Below are positions 5,136 through 20,084 of a stretch of DNA of 22,243 nucleotides, piece after piece. The translations under genes and the position numbers were made by a program. The notes beneath the pieces were generated by a model. That model saw nothing but the letters and a program-made list of their open reading frames with translations. It did no database searches and had not been told where the DNA came from. The DNA comes from a virus, in the IMG/VR virus record IMGVR_UViG_3300010354_000751, positions 1 through 22,243 of that record; one strand, 5' to 3'. Each line of letters starts with the position of its first letter. The stretch's first letter is position 1.

Positions 5136-5915
5136 ATGATTCCAGTTATAGGTACATGTGTAGTTTTTACAACACATTGGGTAGAACGTTTATTAGCCAG
5201 TGTGGATTTTCCTGTAGAAAATTTCTTAATTATAAACAATAATGGTAGAGGTGAAATAAACGAAAACTTAGATGCATTAGCAAAAGTCAAACGAAGATAT
5301 ATAAAAAATGTACATGTAATACACATGCCCTGTAATCTTGGTGTACCAGCAAGTTGGAATCTTATAATTAAAAGTTATATGATGTCACCATATTGGATTA
5401 TAGTAAATGACGATGTAGCATTTGGACATGGCCTATTAAGAGAAATGTATGAAACAGTAACAAATGATCCTGAAGTAGGTATCATACATGGTCATGCAGG
5501 TGATTTTAATGTAGGAAGTTGGGATTTATTTTTACTACGAGATCATACAGTAGCTAAGTTTGGATTATTTGATGAAAATATGTATCCGGCTTATAGTGAA
5601 GATGATGATTACATTATGCGTATGATGCATCAAGGAGTAAAAAAAGTGCTTGGGCTAAGTAGCACTTATTACCATGGAGACGGAGATAAAACTCAATATC
5701 ATTTCCATGGTGGTAACACACGTAGACATGATCCAGAAATTATGAAAAAATTAGATGAAGCAAGGGATATGAATATTGAATATCTAACTGCAAAATGGGA
5801 TAAGCATTGGCGTACTTGTTGGCCTACTTTTGAACCATGGCAAGGACAGCCACATAATTTGACTGAACAACGATATGATTTAGAATTTTTACGTAAGAAA
5901 TATATGGGGTTTTAA
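5136..5915 (+). CDS. GT2-like (GT-A fold) glycosyltransferase, 259 aa
   Basis: Expected to transfer a sugar from a nucleotide-sugar donor. The N-terminus has the usual nucleotide-binding start (VIGTCVVFTTHW). NLGVPASWNLII (about residues 66-78) is typical of GT2 enzymes, and IIVNDDVAF provides a metal-binding acidic cluster (D92, D93). EDDDYIMRM (residues 155-163) fits the ED catalytic-base motif. The C-terminus is rich in His and Trp (HYHGDGDKT-like run, then WRTCWPTFEPW) and is not recognised. At 259 residues it is a compact single-domain enzyme without a membrane anchor. AGGA lies about 10 bases before the ATG. The stop codon overlaps the stop of the convergent Nudix gene, with no terminator between them. 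Confidence 0.78.
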   Translation: MIPVIGTCVVFTTHWVERLLASVDFPVENFLIINNNGRGEINENLDALAKVKRRYIKNVHVIHMPCNLGVPASWNLIIKSYMMSPYWIIVNDDVAFGHGLLREMYETVTNDPEVGIIHGHAGDFNVGSWDLFLLRDHTVAKFGLFDENMYPAYSEDDDYIMRMMHQGVKKVLGLSSTYYHGDGDKTQYHFHGGNTRRHDPEIMKKLDEARDMNIEYLTAKWDKHWRTCWPTFEPWQGQPHNLTEQRYDLEFLRKKYMGF

Positions 5916-6346
5916 ACTAAGTCCATAATTTGAAAAACAGTCTGTAGTTTTGATCTTATATTTTTATTACTAAAGCTGCTACGCAATCCTTGATGTAATG
6001 GTTTTGGAGCCATGTCTATAGTTGTCCAACTATACCCAGCATGTTCAAAACTAAGCATAGGAATGAATTCTTTACTTATTACACAGAGATATGTGTGGAA
6101 ATTAAAAACATGATCATTGCTAACAAATGTTTCAAGTGGTATACTTTTTATTATTTCTGGCATGAAACCTAATTCTTCTACGATTTCTCTAACTAAAGTT
6201 TGCCAAGGATTTTCATTAGTTATAGCAGTGCCACCAACAAGACTCCAAGTACCTTGATGTTTACCTTTTGATTTTTGTAAAAGTAAAATACGTTTAGATT
6301 CTTTACTATAAAACAATGCACCACTACAAACAATTTTATCTTTCAT
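5912..6346 (-). CDS. Nudix hydrolase, 144 aa
   Basis: Hydrolyses a nucleoside diphosphate linked to another moiety; the exact substrate cannot be read from sequence. The Nudix box is complete (with start M1 = MKDKIV, residues 39-61): G, five residues, E, seven residues, then REIVEELGF. This fits GX5EX7REUXEEXGU with all metal-binding glutamates present. The start is placed at ATG 6346 because it forms an ATGA overlap with the gp15 stop codon, a classic coupling arrangement; an in-frame TTG at 6361 would add five residues. It is the last gene of the inverted gp14-gp15-Nudix operon and is therefore probably late, which is unusual for a nucleotide-metabolism enzyme. Candidate roles are sanitising oxidised nucleotides, cleaving ADP-ribose or dinucleotides, or consuming a nucleotide-sugar made for the nearby glycan genes. 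Confidence 0.88.
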   Translation of the reverse strand: MKDKIVCSGALFYSKESKRILLLQKSKGKHQGTWSLVGGTAITNENPWQTLVREIVEELGFMPEIIKSIPLETFVSNDHVFNFHTYLCVISKEFIPMLSFEHAGYSWTTIDMAPKPLHQGLRSSFSNKNIRSKLQTVFQIMDLV

Positions 6347-7974
6347 AAAATTAATCGCCAATAACCTTTTCTATATTCGCCTTCAAAACTTTTAACCCAT
6401 GTAATTCCATTCCATTTATATTGAACATTACTAAGAGTGTTTGTTAGATATTTAATTATATCTCTATTCTTAGTACTATCAAATATTATATGCCAATTAG
6501 ATCCAGTCCATTCTATAATATCATTTGTGTTAGCTATAAAATCTGTATTGTCAGTATTTTTCCAAGCATCTGGACCATCATGGTTAAAGTTGATTATATA
6601 CGTAATTATGTCATCAGGTAGTGCATCATTAGTTAATCTTACAACAAGTTTACCATCAATATTTAAATTAACAAAACTTACCGCAATATCATTGACAAGA
6701 ATTTTTACATCATCAACTTTATCAAAGTCTACCATTGTGTCTATTCTATTACTGGCATTTTCAGCTATTAATGTTTCTCTAACTCCTCCACCAATATTAT
6801 TAATTAATAAGTATCTAATACCCACAGTAGGTAATGGTAATCCACTTCCTGGACCTTTTTCTGTTGGATCAATTATAGCATCAAAGGTTCCAGGACTTGA
6901 TAGTCTATAGGGGCTTAATATATCTGTGTTACTTGGGTAAGTATCTGGATCCCAATTTATGTTTAATATTGTATTATCCAATGGACTTATTGCAATAGTT
7001 CCTATAACTTCTAATCCAGATGGTTGAGTAAGGAATATTTTACTTTGTCCAGGAGTATATGCTTTAGGGTGCTTATCCATTATTTCATACCAACTTACAG
7101 GATTAAGACTGTCTAAACCAGTTTCATTTATTCTAAATTGTAAATGTCCATCTTCAGTAGGTGAAAATATTTTTCCTTGTCCATTATATGTTATAAGATG
7201 ATAATCAACTATTCTTATATTAACTTTTTCAGGTATTTGCTCAAATATTCCTTGACTACCTTCGTTTGGATCTTCTCCAAATCCTTCAATATAGCCTGAA
7301 GCGGGTTCACCAATAGAACTATACATACCCATCGAGATGCTTTGTACTATTCCCAACTTTTTAACCTTGCTTGGAGGACTAATCCATATTGGCATACTAA
7401 AAGTAAGAGTAGCAACATCAATTGAACTTTCTGTACCAGTCGGTATTTGACGTCCAGTAAAAGCAACATCATCAAGATATACAACACTTAGACTGGTCCA
7501 ATCTATGTAATTATCTGTAGTTTGAATTTCCAAGCTTGGGTTGAATAACATTAATATTTGTTCAAGTATTTGTAATTTTTGTTCGGTGCTACTACTCCAA
7601 ATATCTGCCTTTACTGTAAGCTTATAAGGACTTGGCATTAATCGTTCAATAGTATAATTAGACCCTTCAAGACTATTATATTTTCCATTTTCAATTGCTC
7701 GTTCTCTAATATGTATTTTTCCTACATAAGTTGGGTCAGCAAGGCGTTCCTTATCCATTTCTAATCCAGTTATGTAGACTGCTATTCTTGGAGCACCGTT
7801 AATTTTATTTTCGCTGTTTTGTTTAATAAGATTGGCAACTTGACGATCCATATCACCGTACATTACAGGTACTTGAACCAATCTGCCATCACCATATTTG
7901 ATAACAAAATTACTCAATAAACGAATAGTTTGTAAAAGATATCGTCTAATTTGTCCGTCATAAAAAAACTGCAT
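6343..7974 (-). CDS. 15: Tail sheath stabiliser / tail completion protein gp15, with long C-terminal extension, 543 aa
   Basis: In T4, gp15 caps the head-proximal end of the tail and joins it to the neck. The first ~210 residues follow T4 gp15 order: FFYDGQIRRY (T4 YFYNSSFRRY), VPVMYG, PRIAVYITGLEM, PSPYKLTVKADIW, QILEQILMLFNP, and a late SMPIWISPP segment. T4 gp15 has 272 residues, so about 270 residues here are additional. The extension carries GPGSGLPLPTVGIRYLL and two aromatic W-x-G-x-x-W motifs (W489/W494 and W521/W526), ending in GEYRKGYWRLIL. The start ATG overlaps the gp14 stop (TAATG), and the gene overlaps the Nudix gene by 4 bases. It lies on the strand opposite to gp13, gp18 and gp19, unlike in T4. 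Confidence 0.85.
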   Translation of the reverse strand: MQFFYDGQIRRYLLQTIRLLSNFVIKYGDGRLVQVPVMYGDMDRQVANLIKQNSENKINGAPRIAVYITGLEMDKERLADPTYVGKIHIRERAIENGKYNSLEGSNYTIERLMPSPYKLTVKADIWSSSTEQKLQILEQILMLFNPSLEIQTTDNYIDWTSLSVVYLDDVAFTGRQIPTGTESSIDVATLTFSMPIWISPPSKVKKLGIVQSISMGMYSSIGEPASGYIEGFGEDPNEGSQGIFEQIPEKVNIRIVDYHLITYNGQGKIFSPTEDGHLQFRINETGLDSLNPVSWYEIMDKHPKAYTPGQSKIFLTQPSGLEVIGTIAISPLDNTILNINWDPDTYPSNTDILSPYRLSSPGTFDAIIDPTEKGPGSGLPLPTVGIRYLLINNIGGGVRETLIAENASNRIDTMVDFDKVDDVKILVNDIAVSFVNLNIDGKLVVRLTNDALPDDIITYIINFNHDGPDAWKNTDNTDFIANTNDIIEWTGSNWHIIFDSTKNRDIIKYLTNTLSNVQYKWNGITWVKSFEGEYRKGYWRLIL

Positions 7975-9319: not shown

Positions 9320-10087
9320 ATGAGCACAAGCACTACACTACAAGAGCGTGAAAAAATCTACAAATATTGCAGAACTATGTTAGGTGATGGTATGGTAGAT
9401 GTAGAATTAGATCCAGATCATTACGAGATTGCAGTGGATCGTGCTCTAAGCCGTTATCGTCAAAAAAGTCCTAATGCTGTAGAAGAAGCATATTATTTTT
9501 TGGAATTAAAAGAAGATACCAATGACTATAGATTACCTAAGGAGATAATTGAAGTACGAAGTGTTTTTCGTCGTACAATAGGTAGTAGAGTAGCAGGTGG
9601 TAGTGGTGGCACACAGTTTGAACCCTTTAATCTTGCGTATACAAATACCTACTTATTGAACAGCACAATGTTAGGCGGAATAGCCACGTATGATATGTTT
9701 GCAGGATATCAAAAACTTGTTGGTCGTATGTTTGGAGCCTTTATAGAATTTCAATGGATTCCTACTACACATACTCTGCGTATCTTGCAAAGAAGTTATG
9801 GTGATGGTGAGCAGATATTGATTAGAGGTTATAATCATAGACCAGATTATATTTTACTACAGGATACTTATGCTGCTCAGTGGTTTAAAGATTATAGTTT
9901 AGCTAATTGTAAATTAATGTTAGGCGAGGCACGCAGCAAATTTAGTCAAATAGCAGGGCCAGGTGGAGCAGGTGGATTAAATGGTAGTGATCTAAAGTCT
10001 TCTGCCAAAGAAGAAATAGAAAAGCTTGAAAAAGAAATTGATACCTATGTGGCAGGCGGCACTGGGTATACTTTTATTATTGGCTAA
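9320..10087 (+). CDS. 13: Neck protein gp13-like, 255 aa
   Basis: Counterpart of T4 gp13, which with gp14 closes the DNA-filled head and connects it to the tail. Recognisable segments are the N-terminal helical part (EREKIYKYCRTMLGDGMVDVELDP, broken here only by description, then AVDRALSRYRQKS), EAYYFLELKEDTNDYRLP, VRSVFRR, and after a Gly-rich loop GRMFGAFIEFQWIP, TLRILQRS and WFKDYSLANCKLMLGEARSKFS. This last block is characteristic of the family. Length is near that of T4 gp13. The start at 9320 is preferred over 9305 because of GGAG at 9307-9310 and the late promoter position. A Gly-rich run near the end (GPGGAGGLNG) precedes a charged helix. It is divergent from gp14, whereas in T4 the two are consecutive on one strand. 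Confidence 0.85.
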   Translation: MSTSTTLQEREKIYKYCRTMLGDGMVDVELDPDHYEIAVDRALSRYRQKSPNAVEEAYYFLELKEDTNDYRLPKEIIEVRSVFRRTIGSRVAGGSGGTQFEPFNLAYTNTYLLNSTMLGGIATYDMFAGYQKLVGRMFGAFIEFQWIPTTHTLRILQRSYGDGEQILIRGYNHRPDYILLQDTYAAQWFKDYSLANCKLMLGEARSKFSQIAGPGGAGGLNGSDLKSSAKEEIEKLEKEIDTYVAGGTGYTFIIG

Positions 10088-10095
10088 CATTAATC

Positions 10096-10124
10096 TTGAC
10101 TATAATTAAAAAATAAATTACTAT
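10096..10124 (+). promoter_or_regulatory. sigma70-type promoter for the dNMP kinase
   Basis: TTGACT at 10096-10101, a 17-base A/T-rich spacer and TACTAT at 10119-10124. Start of transcription would be near 10131, about 12 bases before the kinase ATG. It shares TAATCTTGAC with the glycan-cassette promoter. The match to the -10 consensus is 4 of 6, so this is weaker evidence than at 3090. A TATAAT at 10101-10106 exists, but its best upstream box is at 15-base spacing. Confidence 0.55.
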
Positions 10125-10130
10125 TTTAGA

Positions 10131-10136
10131 AAGGAG
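10131..10136 (+). promoter_or_regulatory. Ribosome-binding site deciding the kinase start
   Basis: AAGGAG ends six bases before ATG 10143. It directly abuts the in-frame TTG at 10137, which is too close, so ATG 10143 is the start. Confidence 0.75.
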
Positions 10137-10142
10137 TTGCCT

Positions 10143-10811
10143 ATGATAGTGGGAATTTGTGGTCTGATTGGCAGCGGTAAAGATACCATTGCTGATTATC
10201 TTGTTAATCTTCATCATTTCCGTAGAGAAAGTTTTGCCCGTAGCCTAAAAGATGCAGTGGCAGCAGTGTTTGGTTGGGATCGTGATATGTTAGAAGGTCG
10301 CACCAAGCAGAGTCGGGAGTGGCGTGAACAAGTAGATTTTTGGTGGAGTAATAGATTGGGTATGAAAATTACTCCAAGATGGGTATTACAAAATTGGGGT
10401 ACAGAAGTGTGTCGTCAAGGGTTCCATGATGATATTTGGATTGCCAGTCTTGAGCACAAATTACGTAACAGTGAGGATAATGTAGTAATAAGTGATTGTA
10501 GATTCCCCAATGAAATTACAGCAATTAAAAAATCAAATGGTATAATTGCTTGTGTGCAAAGAGGTGAATTACCTGATTGGTACGATATTGCACTGGATGC
10601 TAATGGAGGAAACTCTAAGGCTTATAATTATATGCAAGAGTTAGGAATACATCCCAGTGAATGGAAATGGATTGGTACAGAGTTTGATATAATTATTGAT
10701 AATAATAGCAGTTTAAACAATTTATATAATCAAATTGAAAGTATTATATTGAACAGAATTACTTTTGATGTTGATAAAAAAGTAACCTTTATACATACCA
10801 CTTGTGTTTAA
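10143..10811 (+). CDS. 1: Deoxynucleoside monophosphate kinase (T4 gp1-like), 222 aa
   Basis: Phosphorylates deoxynucleoside monophosphates to diphosphates with ATP, feeding phage DNA synthesis in the cytoplasm. The P-loop GLIGSGKDT is at residues 7-15. It is followed by FARSLKDAVAAVFGWDRDMLEG, whose central part is typical of gp1, then RWVLQNWGTEVCR, DIWIASLEHKL and VISDCRFPNE, a strong family signature (the D-R-F-x-N-E block). Length is close to T4 gp1 (241). It sits between gp13 and the sheath gene with its own host-type promoter, so it is probably early although embedded among late genes. An 18-bp stretch near its 3' end (10631-10648) is duplicated at the start of the DUF4422 gene. Which dNMPs are accepted cannot be told from sequence. 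Confidence 0.9.
   Translation: MIVGICGLIGSGKDTIADYLVNLHHFRRESFARSLKDAVAAVFGWDRDMLEGRTKQSREWREQVDFWWSNRLGMKITPRWVLQNWGTEVCRQGFHDDIWIASLEHKLRNSEDNVVISDCRFPNEITAIKKSNGIIACVQRGELPDWYDIALDANGGNSKAYNYMQELGIHPSEWKWIGTEFDIIIDNNSSLNNLYNQIESIILNRITFDVDKKVTFIHTTCV
10631..10648 (+). repeat. 18-bp exact direct repeat, copy 2 (inside dNMP kinase gene)
   Basis: TATGCAAGAGTTAGGAAT, identical to 3139-3156, read here as the internal residues MQELG-I. The upstream flanks are loosely similar as well (both have GCTTA a little before the repeat), which hints at a shared origin beyond 18 bases. Confidence 0.6.
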
Positions 10812-10816
10812 ATAGT

Positions 10817-10887
10817 ATTTCTCCTTAATCAACTCAGCAATTTTCGCCGTTTTGCGCTAAATATATTGAGTAAGATTTAGGAGAAAT
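10817..10887 (+). promoter_or_regulatory. Inverted repeat sequestering the sheath ribosome-binding site
   Basis: Left arm ATTTCTCCTTAATC (10817-10830) pairs with right arm GATTTAGGAGAAAT (10874-10887) over 14 bp with one T-T mismatch. The right arm contains the sheath Shine-Dalgarno (TAGGAG). The 43-base loop holds the late octamer at 10856-10863, whose predicted start point (about 10869) lies inside the loop. RNA reading through from the kinase gene would contain both arms and mask the site; late RNA would lack the left arm. T4 genes e, soc and 49 are known to use this arrangement. No U-tract follows, so it is not a terminator. Confidence 0.65.
10856..10863 (+). promoter_or_regulatory. Late promoter octamer for the sheath gene
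   Basis: GCTAAATA, a variant of the late octamer also seen (as ACTAAATA) before the tube-like gene at 14990. Predicted start near 10869 gives a ~25-base leader carrying TAGGAG. It lies within the loop of the inverted repeat 10817-10887. Confidence 0.6.
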
Positions 10888-10893
10888 CTAACA

Positions 10894-13800
10894 ATGGCCC
10901 AACTAAACTCACCTGGTGTAGCAGTCACCGTTATCGACGAAAGTTTTTATACTCCAGCTGCTCCAAGTACAGTCCCACTTGTAGTTATAGCAACAGCAGA
11001 AAATAAAGCTAATGGTAGCAACACCGGAATAGCACAAGGTACGCTAAAGTCAAATGCAGGTTTAGCATATCTTATCACAAGTCAAAGAGACTTATCAGAA
11101 ACATTTGGCATCCCAATTTTTAAAACTGATGCCAATAATAATCCTGTACATGCAGGTGAACAAAATGAATATGGACTTCAAGCAGCCTATAGTTATTTAG
11201 GTGTAAGCAATAGGGCATATGTAGTAAGAGCTGATGTTGATTTAGGTGCATTAGATCCACAAGCACTTGCTCCACAAGCAGATCCAGAAGGCGGTACATA
11301 TTGGTTTGATGTTATTAAGAGTTCATGGGGTATTTTTGAATGGAATGGTGATGCTAAAGGTGTGGGCCGTGGGCAAACATTTACTAAAAAATTACCAACA
11401 ATAATTACTGATGATTTGAAAATTAACAGCTCAACTGGAGCTCCTTTAGATAGTGTAGGTACTGTAGGTGATTATGCAGTCATCAGTAAAATGAATCTTG
11501 CAACAAGCTATAGTGGTGCAGATACATTATGGTATAGAAATAGTAGTACATGGGTAAAAGTAGGTAGTGAGGATTGGCGTTTAAGTTGGCCCGCAGTAAT
11601 TAGCACAAAACAAAATATTAGTCTCGCTGATGGACTACAATTGCAATTAGATAGAAATGCAGATAGTGATTTTCTTGATGCAGGAGAAACTATTACCATA
11701 AGTGGTACTACAGCAGCAACTATAGCAGCACAAATTAATACATGGGCACCAGCACTTCTAAGAGCCAGCGTAAGTAGTAATGGACGTTTAATGCTATTTT
11801 CAGTAACAGGTTCATTCCGTATCAGTGGTAGTGCGTGTGTTGAATTAGGAATTCCAGCAGGTATATATAATAGTCCTAAATTAGAAATTGCTCCACACAC
11901 AAGAGTTCCATTATTTAAGGACACTGATCCAGTAAAAAGACCAACAGGTAGTGTATGGTTAAAAACCACAGCAGCTAATGGCGGTGCAGAATTTACATTG
12001 AAAAAATATAATGCAGATTCTAAGTTGTTTGAATTAGTCACAGCTCCATTATATGCAAATAATGCTGTGGCGATTTATACTTTAGATAAAGCTGGAGGTG
12101 AAAGATTACCAATAGGTAGTATTTTTGTAAAGACAAATCAAAGCGAATATAACTACGTTTATCCAACAGGTGACACAGGGCCTTTAAGTGCTGATTTTAG
12201 ATTTTTTAGAAAGAGTACAAGTGGTGTAACAACTATTACCAGTAAAAAAATTGTTAATACAACATTAACATCTGGTACAGTTACTTTAACAATGAGTGAA
12301 ACACGAGCAGCAAGTCCTGAATACTCAACACCAATATCATTTAATATTACACTTACAGGTGCAGCAAGTGATGCAGAAAAAATTGCAAAGGCAATAAATG
12401 ATCAAGTTGATCTTGTAAATGTTAGAGCACAGGTAACAGATGATAATAGATTAAGAATTCAACATTTAATTGGTGGTGATATTAGAATTGAGGAAAGTAA
12501 TTTAGCAGCAGAAAAAATAATTACAATTTTATTTGCTGGTGAAAAAAATGCTAATTTACATGTATCATCCTTTGACGATCCAACAGGTCCTGCTTTTGAC
12601 CCTCAATGGGAAATAAGTCATTGGGCTCCATTAAGATTTACAGCCAGTGTAGATGCTCCTACATCATTGACTAATGATCAAACATTATGGTATAATAGTG
12701 TAGTAGATGAAGTAGACATGATGGTGCATAACGGTCAAAAATGGGTAGGTTATAAACAATTATTCCCACTTACAGATCCTAATGGTCCACAAGTAAGTGC
12801 TACAAAGCCGTTAACTCAGAGTGATGGTGCAACAAGTCTTGTAAATGGTGATTTATCGATTGATACTAGTGATATAGATAATTACCCAGTCATTTATAGA
12901 TTTGATACAAGTAGACCTGGTACAGTAGCCACACAATGGGTGCTTGTTGATAAAACTGACCAAAGTAGCGAAGATGGTGTTTTATTTGCTGATGCACGTT
13001 GGACTGACGAAGGTACAAATGCTAAGTATGCAGCCAGCACAATCCAAGAATTATTATCTAGCGATTATGTAGACCCAGATTGTCCAGATCCAGCATTATA
13101 TCCAAAAGGTATGCTATTGTGGAATATGCGTAGAAGTGGATTCAATGTAAAGAAATTTGTACATAACTACATAGATGTTAACGAAGTTAATACAAGATAT
13201 CAAGTTCCAGGACCTTCAGGTACACAAATTGATGAATCTATGAGTGCTTATTATCCACATCGCTGGGTAACTATCAGTGGAAATCAAGAAAATGGGGCAG
13301 GATGGTTTGGACGTGAAGCACAACGACGTGTAGTAGTTCAAAGTTTACAGGCAGTAACAAATAGTTCACGTGATATACGTGAGGAAGCAAGAGTATTTAA
13401 TTTAATTGCATGTCCAGGATATCCTGAACTAATTGGTGAATTAATTAATTTAAATTATGACAGAGGATTATCAGCGTTTATTGTTGGTGACACACCATCA
13501 AGATTAACTCCTGATGCAACAAGCTTGAAAGCTTGGGGTGATAATTTACGCTTATCTGTAGAAGATAATGATGATGGTGCACCAAGCTATGATGAGTATA
13601 TGAGTATGTTTTATCCATGGGGATTTACAAGTGATTTATCAGGGCGTAATATTGTAGTCCCACCAAGCCATATGATGTTAAGAACTATAGCCTTAAGTGA
13701 CAGTGTAAGCTATCCATGGTTTGCTCCTGCTGGAACACGTAGAGGTGGTATAACAAATGCTAGTAGCGTAGGTTATATAGATAAAGAGGGTGAATTTGTA

Positions 13801-14247
13801 GTAGTTGCCCTTAATACAGGACAACGTGATACACTATATGACGTTAAAATTAATCCAATTACATTCTTTACAGGTGTTGGACTTGTTAATTATGGTCAGA
13901 AAACAAGGGCAAAGAATGCCAGTGCTTTAGATAGAATCAATGTAGCACGTCTTGTAGTTTATTTGCGTAGACAATTAGATATATTAGCAAAACCATATAT
14001 CTTTGAACCAAATGATAAGATTACAAGAGATGAAATCAAAGGTGCTTGTGAAAGTTTACTATTAGAACTTGTTGGACAACGAGCTTTATATGACTACATT
14101 GTAGTATGTGATGAGTCTAATAATACACCTTCAAGAATTGATAGAAATGAACTTTATGTTGACATTGCTATTGAACCAGTAAAAGCTGTTGAGTTTATAT
14201 ATATTCCTCTAAGATTGAAGAATACTGGTGAAATTGCTGGTTTATAA
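10894..14247 (+). CDS. 18: Tail sheath protein gp18 with a very large insertion, 1117 aa
   Basis: Contractile sheath subunit. The N-terminus (LNSPGVAVTVIDESFYTPAAP) and the region to ~120 (YSYLGVSNRAYVVRADVDL) are sheath-like. The C-terminal third from ~735 is the conserved contractile core: YPKGMLLWNMRRSGFNVK, GREAQRRVVVQSLQ, IACPGYPELIGELI, PPSHMMLRTIALSD, APAGTRRGGI, GQRDTLYD, INPITFF, RINVARLVVYLRRQLD and a closing VEFIYIPLRL. T4 gp18 has 659 residues, so roughly 450 are extra, mostly between residues 120 and 700. The insert holds repeated small beta motifs: LWY at 212-214 then STWVKVG; VWLKT at 354; IFVKT at 410; LWY at 598-600 then NGQKWVGY. These probably decorate the sheath exterior. 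Its ribosome-binding site is in an inverted repeat. The next gene is the tube protein, as in T4. Confidence 0.93.
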   Translation: MAQLNSPGVAVTVIDESFYTPAAPSTVPLVVIATAENKANGSNTGIAQGTLKSNAGLAYLITSQRDLSETFGIPIFKTDANNNPVHAGEQNEYGLQAAYSYLGVSNRAYVVRADVDLGALDPQALAPQADPEGGTYWFDVIKSSWGIFEWNGDAKGVGRGQTFTKKLPTIITDDLKINSSTGAPLDSVGTVGDYAVISKMNLATSYSGADTLWYRNSSTWVKVGSEDWRLSWPAVISTKQNISLADGLQLQLDRNADSDFLDAGETITISGTTAATIAAQINTWAPALLRASVSSNGRLMLFSVTGSFRISGSACVELGIPAGIYNSPKLEIAPHTRVPLFKDTDPVKRPTGSVWLKTTAANGGAEFTLKKYNADSKLFELVTAPLYANNAVAIYTLDKAGGERLPIGSIFVKTNQSEYNYVYPTGDTGPLSADFRFFRKSTSGVTTITSKKIVNTTLTSGTVTLTMSETRAASPEYSTPISFNITLTGAASDAEKIAKAINDQVDLVNVRAQVTDDNRLRIQHLIGGDIRIEESNLAAEKIITILFAGEKNANLHVSSFDDPTGPAFDPQWEISHWAPLRFTASVDAPTSLTNDQTLWYNSVVDEVDMMVHNGQKWVGYKQLFPLTDPNGPQVSATKPLTQSDGATSLVNGDLSIDTSDIDNYPVIYRFDTSRPGTVATQWVLVDKTDQSSEDGVLFADARWTDEGTNAKYAASTIQELLSSDYVDPDCPDPALYPKGMLLWNMRRSGFNVKKFVHNYIDVNEVNTRYQVPGPSGTQIDESMSAYYPHRWVTISGNQENGAGWFGREAQRRVVVQSLQAVTNSSRDIREEARVFNLIACPGYPELIGELINLNYDRGLSAFIVGDTPSRLTPDATSLKAWGDNLRLSVEDNDDGAPSYDEYMSMFYPWGFTSDLSGRNIVVPPSHMMLRTIALSDSVSYPWFAPAGTRRGGITNASSVGYIDKEGEFVVVALNTGQRDTLYDVKINPITFFTGVGLVNYGQKTRAKNASALDRINVARLVVYLRRQLDILAKPYIFEPNDKITRDEIKGACESLLLELVGQRALYDYIVVCDESNNTPSRIDRNELYVDIAIEPVKAVEFIYIPLRLKNTGEIAGL

Positions 14248-14279: not shown

Positions 14280-14903
14280 ATGGCAATTGCAACATTAAAC
14301 AAATTTACAGTACCTTTATCAAGTGACGCAAGTGCAAGCGCACAGGGCATGTTAATGCCAAAACTAAAATATCGCTTTAGAGTGATGTTTGAAAATTTTG
14401 GTGTTAGCACTCCAACCACGGAACTTACAAAACAGGTACAAACAGCAGCCAAGCCTAATGTACAGTTTCAAAATCAAGTTATTGAAACTTATAACAGTAA
14501 GATTAACTATGCAGGTAAACCACAATGGCAAACCATACAGGTTGTTTTACGTGATGATGCTACTGGAATAGTAAGTAAAATTGTTGGTGAACAAATGCAG
14601 AAACAGTTTGATTTCTTTGAACAAGCCAGTGCTGCCAGCGGTATTGACTATAAGTTCTTAATGCGTATAGAAATAACAGAAGGTGGAAATGGTATACATG
14701 TTCCAACCGTCTTAGAGACCTGGGAGTGCTATGGTTGCTATATTACACAGGCTAATTGGCAATCATTAAGCTATGCAGAAGCGACTCCACAAACTATTGA
14801 TCTAACAATTCAACCTGATAATTGTATTCAAATTCCACAAGGCAGTGGTGTTGGTGCAGGTATTGGCAGAACAGTTCGTACAATGGCTACTGGTGCAGGC
14901 TAA
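14280..14903 (+). CDS. 19: Tail tube protein gp19, 207 aa
   Basis: Major subunit of the rigid inner tail tube through which DNA passes. Family features in order are PKLKYRFRVMFENFG, QTAAKPNVQFQNQVIETYNSKINYAGKPQW (quoted in parts: TAAKPNVQF, ETYNSKINYAGK), TIQVVLRDDATG, FDFFEQASAASGIDYKF, ETWECYGCYITQANW and TIDLTIQPDNC. Slightly longer than T4 gp19 (163 residues), with a Gly-rich tail after the fold. A perfect late octamer and GGAG precede it, and an intrinsic terminator follows after 17 bases, so it may be transcribed as a short, abundant mRNA as well as from read-through of the sheath gene. Confidence 0.93.
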   Translation: MAIATLNKFTVPLSSDASASAQGMLMPKLKYRFRVMFENFGVSTPTTELTKQVQTAAKPNVQFQNQVIETYNSKINYAGKPQWQTIQVVLRDDATGIVSKIVGEQMQKQFDFFEQASAASGIDYKFLMRIEITEGGNGIHVPTVLETWECYGCYITQANWQSLSYAEATPQTIDLTIQPDNCIQIPQGSGVGAGIGRTVRTMATGAG

Positions 14904-14989: not shown

Positions 14990-16066
14990 ATGGCAGGACC
15001 ATTTACAGGATTATTAGACCAATTAGGCAATGGGTTTCTACGACCCAAAGGTCAAATGGGAGACTGGCAACATGCTGCCCGTACCTTTGTTGATGACAAT
15101 TTTAGACTAGCACCTAAAGCAAAGTTCTTATATCATGTATATTTCGACATAAATCGTAGTGCAGTGTTTATGCCAGCCTTAACAGAACGTCATAGAAATG
15201 AAATAGGTTTGTTAGTTAAAAGTGTAGATTTACCTAAGTTTTCAATACGTTCACAAACTGTAAATCAGTATAATAGAAAGAAGGTCGTGCAAACTGGACA
15301 TTCGTACGGGCCAATGACTTTTAGATTTCATGATGATAGGGCAGATATTGTTAATATGATGTGGCAAGCATATTATAGATATTATTATGCTGATACTACT
15401 ACTGCTGAAATTGCTGGAGCTTATTTACGTAATAGTATGTCTTCTTTTTCAAAAATAAAAGGAGCTCATGGTTATGATAATAATAGTTCAATACCTTTTT
15501 TTAATAGTATATACTTGTATCAATTAAACAAACGTAACTATGTATCCTACAAATTAATAAATCCTTTGATAACTACATTTAACCATGACACTCCATCAAG
15601 CAGTGATCAAGGTGCTACTGGTGCTGAATGTAGTATGACTGTTTCTTATGAAGCAGTTACATACGATAGTGGACCAATAAGTTCAGGTAAAGTTCTTGGA
15701 TTTAATGATGAACATTATGATAAAAGTCCCAGTCCACTTAGTGCAGCTGGTGGGGGAACATCTACACTGTTTGGTCAAGGTGGTGTAATTGAAGGAGCAG
15801 CTAATATTTTTGGCGCTATTTCAAGTGGTAATGCTTTTAATAGTTTACCTAATATTATTAATACCGCTGCTACAGCAGTTAATACCTATCAAAATGCAAA
15901 AAATCTTAAAGGGTCAACTATTAAGGCAGAAGCTCGTAACCTGGCTGTGGCTGGTACTGTGGCTGCTGCTGGTGCTGCTTTTAATGTTATAGGTACAGCT
16001 TTTCCCTCAACGTCCTTATCAACGGCCACTAAGGCGATTAGACGAGATATAGGAGGTGGCGGTTGA
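14990..16066 (+). CDS. Tail tube-fold protein, possible tube initiator (gp54-like), 358 aa
   Basis: Probably a structural protein at one end of the tube. Residues ~40-225 have the order seen in tube and tube-initiator proteins: KAKFLYHVYFDI, LLVKSVDLPKFSIRSQTVNQY (quoted up to that point), QTGHSYGPMTFRFHDD, then a second strand set with YKLINPLIT and a closing CSMTVSYEAVTYDSG. The LP-x-F/Y-N-Y-N-(R/S) and FR-x-D pattern is similar to T4 gp54, the baseplate-tube junction initiator. The last ~115 residues are Ala/Gly/Ser-rich and low in complexity (for example AVAGTVAAAGAAF), and may be flexible or membrane-interacting. It follows gp19 after a terminator and has its own late octamer. A gp19 paralogue with another role remains possible. 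Confidence 0.6.
   Translation: MAGPFTGLLDQLGNGFLRPKGQMGDWQHAARTFVDDNFRLAPKAKFLYHVYFDINRSAVFMPALTERHRNEIGLLVKSVDLPKFSIRSQTVNQYNRKKVVQTGHSYGPMTFRFHDDRADIVNMMWQAYYRYYYADTTTAEIAGAYLRNSMSSFSKIKGAHGYDNNSSIPFFNSIYLYQLNKRNYVSYKLINPLITTFNHDTPSSSDQGATGAECSMTVSYEAVTYDSGPISSGKVLGFNDEHYDKSPSPLSAAGGGTSTLFGQGGVIEGAANIFGAISSGNAFNSLPNIINTAATAVNTYQNAKNLKGSTIKAEARNLAVAGTVAAAGAAFNVIGTAFPSTSLSTATKAIRRDIGGGG
16051..16057 (+). promoter_or_regulatory. Strong ribosome-binding site inside the preceding gene, deciding a TTG start
   Basis: AGGAGGT lies within the codons for the terminal glycines of the tube-like protein. It is five bases before TTG 16063, whose last two bases begin the TGA stop of that protein. The near-perfect site makes the non-ATG start credible. 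Confidence 0.7.
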
Positions 16067-18501: not shown

Positions 18502-20084
18502 TGGCCAAGTCGCTTGACGGTGTACTAACCAAAAAAGCACATAAGAAGGAAAAGTACACCGAGGATCAAATACAAAATTTATTAGCTTGTAGTGATCCTG
18601 ATACTGGCTACTTACACTTTAGTAAACATTTTTATTATATTCAACATCCAGTAAAGGGTAAGTTATTATTTGAGCCTTTTGGTTTCCAAGAAAGGCTCAT
18701 GCACGCTTATCATAATCATAGATTTACAGTTAATATGCTACCACGTCAGATGGGTAAGACTACTTGTGCTGCCTGTTATCTACTATGGTATGCAATGTTT
18801 ATACCAGATCAAACAATTCTTATAGCAGCTCACAAATACACTGGTGCATATGAAATCATGCAGCGTATTAGATATGCTTATGAATTATGCCCTGACTTTA
18901 TTAGAAGTGGTGTTATTAATTATAACAAAGGTAGTATAGAATTTGACAATGGTAGTCGTATTGTCAGTGCTACAACTACTAATAACACTGGTCGTGGTAT
19001 GTCAATATCCTTATTATATTGTGATGAGTTTGCATTTGTTCAACCTAATATAGCAGACGAGTTTTGGACTTCAATAAGCCCAACATTGGCAACTGGTGGT
19101 CGTGCTATCATTACCAGTACACCAAACAGCGATGAAGATACATTTGCCAATATATGGAAAGAAGCTAATAATCATTTTGACGAGTATGGAAATGAAACTG
19201 AATTAGGTCTTAATGGATTTTTCCCATTTACCTGTAGTTGGAATGAACATCCAGATCGTGATGAAACTTGGGCAAAAGAGGAACAAGCACGTATTGGTGA
19301 AGAAAGGTTCCGTCGTGAATATGGATGCGAATTTTTAGTATATGATGAAACACTAATTAATAGCATAAGGCTTAGTGAACTTATTGGGCGTGATCCTATT
19401 TTTAAAATGGGACAAACACGTTGGTATAGTAAAATAAATCCCAATATGTTGTATCTTGTGGCTTTAGATCCAAGTCTTGGAACAGGTGGAAATTATAGTG
19501 CTATAGTTGTTTTTGAGTTACCTACATTTAAGCAGGTAGGTGAATGGTATCACAATACTACACCAATACAAGGACAAATTAAAATACTTAAAGATATTTT
19601 ACAGTATCTTGACCAGCATATGGAAGGAAACAGTAATAATATATATTGGAGTATTGAAAATAATACAGTAGGTGAAGCAGGTTTAGTTGTTATAAGAGAT
19701 CAAGGAGAGGAAACTTTTCCTGGTTTAATGGTAAGTGAACCTATTAGAAAAGGACATGTGAGGAAGTTTCGTAAAGGATTCAATACAACACATTCTGCTA
19801 AAATTGCAGCCTGTGCTCGTCTGAAGCATTTGATCGAAACTGGTCAAATGACTATAAGTAGTCGTCCCATGATAAGTGAATTAAAAACATTTGTAGCCCA
19901 TGGGTTTACCTTTAAGGCTAAAGAGGGTGACCATGATGATCTTGTAAGTGCTTTGTTATTATTATGCAGAATGAGCGCTCTGGTAGCAGATTGGGATCCT
20001 CGGGTATTTGAAAGTCTTAGTGGAGTACATTCTGAGGATGATTTTGTTGCTCCATTACCAATCTTTATTTCCCAATCTTTCTAA
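18501..20084 (+). CDS. 17: Terminase large subunit gp17, 527 aa
   Basis: ATP-driven DNA packaging motor with a headful-cutting nuclease, acting at the portal. N-terminal ATPase: adenine-binding region FQERLMHAYHNHRF, Walker A-type RQMGKTT (82-88, K86), Walker B LLYCDEFAF (D175, E176) and coupling motif ITSTPN. C-terminal RNase H-like nuclease: LVALDPSLGTGGNYSAI with D323, WSIENNT with E386, and HDDLVSALLLL with D479 and D480. All key acidic residues are present, so it should be active. It is shorter than T4 gp17 (610 residues). The start overlaps the previous stop by one base. Intactness argues the genome is from a replicating phage and not a decayed prophage. Confidence 0.96.
   Translation: MAKSLDGVLTKKAHKKEKYTEDQIQNLLACSDPDTGYLHFSKHFYYIQHPVKGKLLFEPFGFQERLMHAYHNHRFTVNMLPRQMGKTTCAACYLLWYAMFIPDQTILIAAHKYTGAYEIMQRIRYAYELCPDFIRSGVINYNKGSIEFDNGSRIVSATTTNNTGRGMSISLLYCDEFAFVQPNIADEFWTSISPTLATGGRAIITSTPNSDEDTFANIWKEANNHFDEYGNETELGLNGFFPFTCSWNEHPDRDETWAKEEQARIGEERFRREYGCEFLVYDETLINSIRLSELIGRDPIFKMGQTRWYSKINPNMLYLVALDPSLGTGGNYSAIVVFELPTFKQVGEWYHNTTPIQGQIKILKDILQYLDQHMEGNSNNIYWSIENNTVGEAGLVVIRDQGEETFPGLMVSEPIRKGHVRKFRKGFNTTHSAKIAACARLKHLIETGQMTISSRPMISELKTFVAHGFTFKAKEGDHDDLVSALLLLCRMSALVADWDPRVFESLSGVHSEDDFVAPLPIFISQSF

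Follow-up and report, generated by a model that had tools for sequence, protein, structure and literature searches.

A predicted ribosome-binding-site cage with a putative late promoter in its loop precedes the tail sheath gene of a probable jumbo phage and recurs in other jumbo-phage lineages

The tail sheath gene of a 22 kb virus record (IMG/VR IMGVR_UViG_3300010354_000751; the window, below, is the whole analysed stretch of 22,243 nucleotides) has its ribosome-binding site (RBS) in an inverted repeat that carries a putative T4-type late promoter in its loop. This arrangement is probably a cage of the type described for T4 genes e, soc and 49, silencing sheath mRNA that is read through from upstream. 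The control would be the one known from T4 lysozyme, here at a new gene, and it has apparently evolved more than once.

The window is most readily taken as part of a jumbo-phage genome, because the nearest sheath relative on a long contig, L004, sits in a contig of 399,796 bp. Around the cage, the genes follow the order neck protein (head-tail adaptor family), deoxynucleoside monophosphate (dNMP) kinase, tail sheath, and tail tube. The kinase gene (phrog_139; 10143-10811, plus strand) is co-directional with the downstream sheath gene (1117 aa; phrog_10581, phrog_23; 10894-14247, plus strand), and a gap of 82 nt separates the kinase stop at 10811 from the sheath start at 10894. As a small correction, the kinase starts at the ATG at 10143 and not at the TTG at 10137. 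No terminator was found between kinase and sheath in positions 10000-11000 with an exact-match filter, which also left a terminator-like stem in phage RAS14 unflagged. Downstream of the sheath, two tandem genes (14280-14903 and 14990-16066) both match the tail-tube family. A galactosyltransferase-like gene (5136-5915, plus strand) and a nudix-hydrolase-like gene (5912-6361, minus strand) lie amid virion genes. The sheath coding sequence itself contains a 19-nt inverted repeat, 79% complementary, at 11405-11423 and 11471-11489.

The left, anti-Shine-Dalgarno arm of the cage, ATTTCTCCTTAATC (10817-10830, plus strand), lies only 5 nt beyond the kinase stop. The right arm, GATTTAGGAGAAAT (10874-10887, plus strand), includes the sheath Shine-Dalgarno sequence (SD) AGGAG at 10879-10883. 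Together, the arms make a 14-nt inverted repeat with a single T-T mismatch (10826/10878). Both this complementarity and the placing of the SD in the right arm and of a late-type octamer in the loop had been pointed out previously, and proved exact in sequence and coordinates. In letter shuffles, pairing with the sequence ahead of the promoter has p = 0.004-0.013. Two other functions were considered and rejected: no minus-strand ORF of at least 60 aa starts where the left arm could serve as an SD, and the stem is followed by no T run that would make it an intrinsic terminator, nor was any such terminator found.

Folding of RNA from 10800 leaves the SD paired (MFE -30.9 kcal/mol, z -2.2), and folding from 10869 gives a 6-bp hairpin whose loop exposes AGGAG. 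As had been anticipated, the long RNA closes the site and the late RNA opens it. Opening AGGAG takes 11.0 kcal/mol in the long RNA but 0.1 in the late RNA. When the upstream part was shuffled in 1000 trials with dinucleotides kept, the long-RNA cost was 1.5 +/- 1.5, with a maximum of 9.0, and none of the 1000 shuffles reached 11.0. In these computations, the closed state depends on the left arm: the cost is 11.8 kcal/mol for an RNA starting at 10817, 4.9 at 10822 and 0.4 at 10826, and does not exceed 0.8 for later starts up to 10872. Eighteen gene starts of the window were tested, eight of them left unscored for want of an SD match; the sheath is the only gene with a recognisable SD above 5.0 kcal/mol in long RNA, the nine others ranging from 0.5 to 5.0.

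The small hairpin that had been suggested for the late leader is predicted by folding as AGATTT-AGGAG-AAATCT (10873-10889, plus strand). It holds the SD in its loop, is mutually exclusive with the cage, occurs once in the window, and is predicted to be compatible with an open SD. Two alternative structures, as had been proposed, are in keeping with the folding, but covariation is uninformative about it, since the letters of the hairpin never vary among the close relatives of the window.

The octamer in the loop, GCTAAATA (10856-10863, plus strand), matches the T4 consensus TATAAATA at six of eight positions, and NTAAATA is found at its position throughout the window clade. Late promoters of the gp55 type start RNA a few bases after the octamer. 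By analogy, the octamer would be a late promoter with its RNA start near 10869, beyond the left arm. Upstream, the candidate source of read-through RNA is a sigma70-type promoter of the kinase, TTGACT, 17 nt, TACTAT (10096-10124, plus strand). As a bare consensus match it does not stand out from chance (4.1 such matches expected, 3 found). The case for it comes from its conservation in relatives: TTGACT-17-TANNAT stands in the same place before the kinase in nine of ten clade members with a complete upstream region, L085 being the one without it. The sequence of L002 begins inside the -35 element and is outside the ten, and L083 shows the promoter but was outside that scan. The promoter assignment of the preliminary description is supported by its conservation but not by the consensus match, and the kinase would be an early-type gene.

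The intergenic region would then act as a switch that responds to the origin of the transcript. RNA entering from upstream, from the kinase promoter or from further back, would contain both arms; its SD would be paired and little sheath would be made. Late RNA would start inside the loop, past the left arm, and because it begins after that arm the stem would be impossible and the small hairpin would show AGGAG. With the SD paired in read-through RNA and shown in late RNA, the sheath would be translated only from its own late transcript. Against this reading, ribosomes finishing the kinase at 10811, beside the left arm, might open the cage.

In T4, the late genes e, soc, 49, and I-TevI have an RBS that long early transcripts keep closed; at e and I-TevI, a nearby late promoter frees it by omitting the 5' arm (PMC3014915, PMC2988022). 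Used here as positive controls, T4 genes gave opening costs that fell from long to late RNA (e, 13.5 to 4.1 kcal/mol; 49, 7.5 to 1.3; segB, 9.4 to 4.4), whereas several late genes serving as negatives were low in both (long/late: 18, 1.4/0.9; 22, 1.6/0.5; 24, 2.4/1.2). T4 genes 53 (8.6/3.7) and 4 (7.1/1.9) were raised too. The soc gene was missed by opening cost, because its SD lies in a loop while its AUG is paired.

The window shares several features with these cages. The T4 genes e, soc, 49, and I-TevI also lie downstream of early-type genes (in the window, the presumably early kinase), co-directional and without a terminator between; the SD, the AUG or both are paired in the long transcript (in the window, by folding); the late octamer stands between the left arm and the RBS (in the window, a candidate promoter); and the 5' arm is missing from late RNA, whose site is open (in the window, by folding, for any start in 10826-10872). 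The opening costs of T4 e and 49 behave as those of the window sheath do. Unlike in the T4 cages, the caged gene in the window is the tail sheath, whose T4 orthologue, gene 18, is uncaged; the window cage belongs with the T4 ones in mechanism and not through shared ancestry. Its loop is also longer: 43 nt separate the arms, and the promoter is about 25 nt past the left arm. In T4 e, by contrast, the arm overlaps the promoters. The late leader of the window sheath also has an SD-showing hairpin of its own, unlike the T4 cages. Hairpins of mobE from Aeromonas phage Aeh1 and of T4 segB sequester the RBS in read-through RNA (PMC2988022), and a nearby late promoter frees it, as predicted for the window. 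These are homing endonuclease genes inserted in early operons, whereas the window gene is a core virion gene.

Eleven other sheath loci having the kinase upstream were compared with the window. The stretch GAGTAAGATTTAGGAGAAATCTA is identical in all compared loci of this clade. The left arm varies yet continues to pair: in an alignment of ten sequences, standard pairs make up 93.8% of cells, but only 33-58% when the arms are slid by one to three columns. All changes opposite the six SD-proximal bases are C to U and give G-U pairs. The right arm never varies within the clade, so that true two-sided covariation is absent and a test for it was uninformative. Among relatives whose sheaths are about 60-80% identical, the core of the arm persists amid drift in the remainder of the gap. 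The arms are shifted relative to the promoter in L004, whose left arm is GATTTCTCCTA in a shifted register, and in L089, where AGATTTCTCC lies near a perfect TATAAATA and the arm lies far from the kinase stop. The expectation that relatives with the promoter and a co-directional kinase would conserve the pairing was largely borne out, G-U changes included, but L008 is a clear exception: it keeps the kinase, the kinase promoter, and the late octamer, and its cage has decayed (opening cost 0.6 kcal/mol in both RNAs).

The logic of the cage that the preliminary description had proposed gains from other jumbo phages, in which the layout recurs with other arm letters. In RaK2, GAP32, CBB, BF, PBECO4, Munch, and XaC1, the kinase-sheath gap reads AATCCTCCAA-TAAATA ... 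TTGGAGGATT-ATG or a close variant, and in this set the opening cost drops from 11-15 kcal/mol for the long RNA to 2-5 for the late one. The corresponding gap reads TATAACCCC ... GATAAATAC ... GGGGTTATA in Atu_ph07 and TTTCTCCTA ... AATAAATA ... TAGGAGAAA in XacN1. The arms of the RaK2-like phages, Atu_ph07, and XacN1 differ in letters and are set around an ATAAATA motif, and the SD is always in the right arm. ATAAATA has been reported as a late motif of the RaK2-like phage CBB and proposed as a late promoter for CBB and GAP32 (PMC5259590). The RaK2-like sheath leaders share with the window the kinase-sheath order and the succession of left arm, ATAAATA, SD arm, and ATG; they differ from it in their arms, in a left arm that touches the promoter, and in a sheath phylogenetically far from the window clade. 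They also show another palindrome that is conserved, TAT-A-CGAATATTCG-A-ATA, close to where late RNA is predicted to begin (alignment A1), and a CCAAA/TTTGG pair just before the SD that would exclude the cage. No report of a cage in RaK2-like or other jumbo phages, and no map of jumbo-phage transcription start sites, was found in the open-licence literature.

Several other loci were considered. The sheath of SCTP-2 is uncaged, and no significant cage was found in Stenotrophomonas phage RAS14 (L112), a relative of XacN1. In RAS14, the gap before position 1795 holds a terminator-like stem with a T run, AAGCCCTGATTTTCGGGGCTTTTTT, where XacN1 has its cage; the stem and the cage are two ways of blocking read-through. 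A candidate in PA5oct/Paride was not counted (p only 0.05, opening cost hardly changing), nor was one in Vibrio 2.275.O, with a duplex p of 0.016 and a site closed in late RNA too. A genome-wide scan of RaK2, GAP32, Paride, and Atu_ph07 returned 6 of 211 genes with p <= 0.01 and the SD covered, a modest excess over the approximately two expected; such a scan misses T4 e and soc, because their left arm overlaps or follows the promoter. In RaK2 (NC_019526.1), the neck gene at 18826 (L189; head-tail adaptor Ad2), which follows a run of small, mostly hypothetical genes, is preceded by a perfect arm pair, TATAGCACCTC / GAGGTGCTATA, around TCTAAATAA, and is a second strong cage candidate. The case of the RaK2 tube gene at 25237 is weaker (p 0.016). 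Similar leaders, AACTCCAAGG ... GATAAATAC ... CCTTGGAGTTTTTT before the ATG, occur at 139479 in RaK2 and at 235913 in GAP32 (NC_019401.1), an element that could be a cage and a long-loop terminator at once.

The presence of a cage was found to vary with the direction of the upstream gene. In a first set, all divergent sheath loci had a duplex p above 0.05 and most co-directional loci reached 0.05 or less; the median difference in SD opening cost (long minus late) was 8.0 kcal/mol at 33 co-directional versus 0.8 at 40 divergent loci. Fisher counts on clusters were 23/30 versus 0/27 at 95% and 5/9 versus 0/1 at 65%; these tests overstate the contrast, since most of the divergent loci belong to a single clade. 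For a second set, without RaK2-like loci, the prediction was fixed before examination. Here p 0.05 was reached in 8 of 37 co-directional versus 1 of 19 divergent clusters, and p was lower in co-directional loci (MWU p 0.001 at 95% clustering, 0.015 at 80%). The remaining 29 of the 37 have no significant cage, and the result is therefore an enrichment in co-directional loci and not a rule. A test on phylogenetically independent pairs, low in power, gave 1.3 for, 0.2 against and 8.5 ties.

In the sheath tree, the window clade, all co-directional, nests in a large divergent and uncaged clade, with the divergent L010 as its nearest outgroup and the RaK2-like group far away. Because of this nesting, the window and RaK2-like cages are probably separate in origin, and two origins are the simplest reading of the tree. 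In L010, L012, L013, and L022, a divergent gene of about 110 aa, HNH-endonuclease-like in a family assignment made by eye for the loci inspected, takes the place ahead of the sheath that the kinase has in the window clade.

Among other explanations, the one with most weight, though still rather unlikely, is that the silenced read-through RNA is itself late, from a neck-kinase operon, and that the cage insulates stoichiometry and is no clock, sheath dosage being set by the sheath promoter alone. The kinase is preceded by the neck gene, a structural gene with GATAAATA just before it. In RaK2-like phages, a stretch of 300 nt by the kinase gave no clear sigma70 promoter, and several of them have a late-type motif about 330 nt upstream of it. 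Against this, the kinase of the window clade has its own conserved TTGACT-17-TANNAT promoter, and a dNMP kinase is a DNA-metabolism gene. Control of the cage by kinase translation is improbable; in that case a ribosome stopping at 10811 would cover the left arm from 10817, open the sheath site, and couple the two genes. The 5-nt spacing in the window invites this idea, but phages with the design vary in the distance from stop to arm (about 5 to about 29 nt), and L089 has retained its arm far from the stop.

Chance complementarity retained through relatedness is very improbable. The region is rich in A+T, a purine-rich SD pairs readily with any CTCC, and single duplex p values are only about 0.01; yet no shuffle matched the opening cost, the arm core outlasts the drift of the gap around it, and the same design stands in the same place with other letters in other lineages. 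Even less credit is due to the repeat acting in DNA, as an operator or a cruciform at the late promoter that it flanks. Most left-arm changes opposite the SD preserve pairing as G-U, which is meaningless for a DNA palindrome, the arm letters vary by lineage with the SD always in the right arm, and the arms shift against the promoter in L004 and L089.

Read as a cage acting on read-through mRNA, the element would bring to a core virion protein a control circuit that is classical in T4 for lysis, homing, and accessory genes. It would do so in jumbo phages, for which most of the timing of gene expression has yet to be mapped. That two distant lineages have the same design in different letters suggests that gene order predicts RNA control; if this is true, an anti-SD arm would often stand upstream of the late promoter of a virion gene that follows an early gene. 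It is tentatively proposed, as a possibility short of an even chance, that the caging of virion genes is a recurrent and independently evolved layer of late timing in jumbo phages, which would tend to appear behind an early-type gene on the same strand, decay with a divergent neighbour, and affect several genes per genome, as in RaK2, where the neck gene, the tube gene, and ORF155 (139479) may be caged in addition to the sheath.
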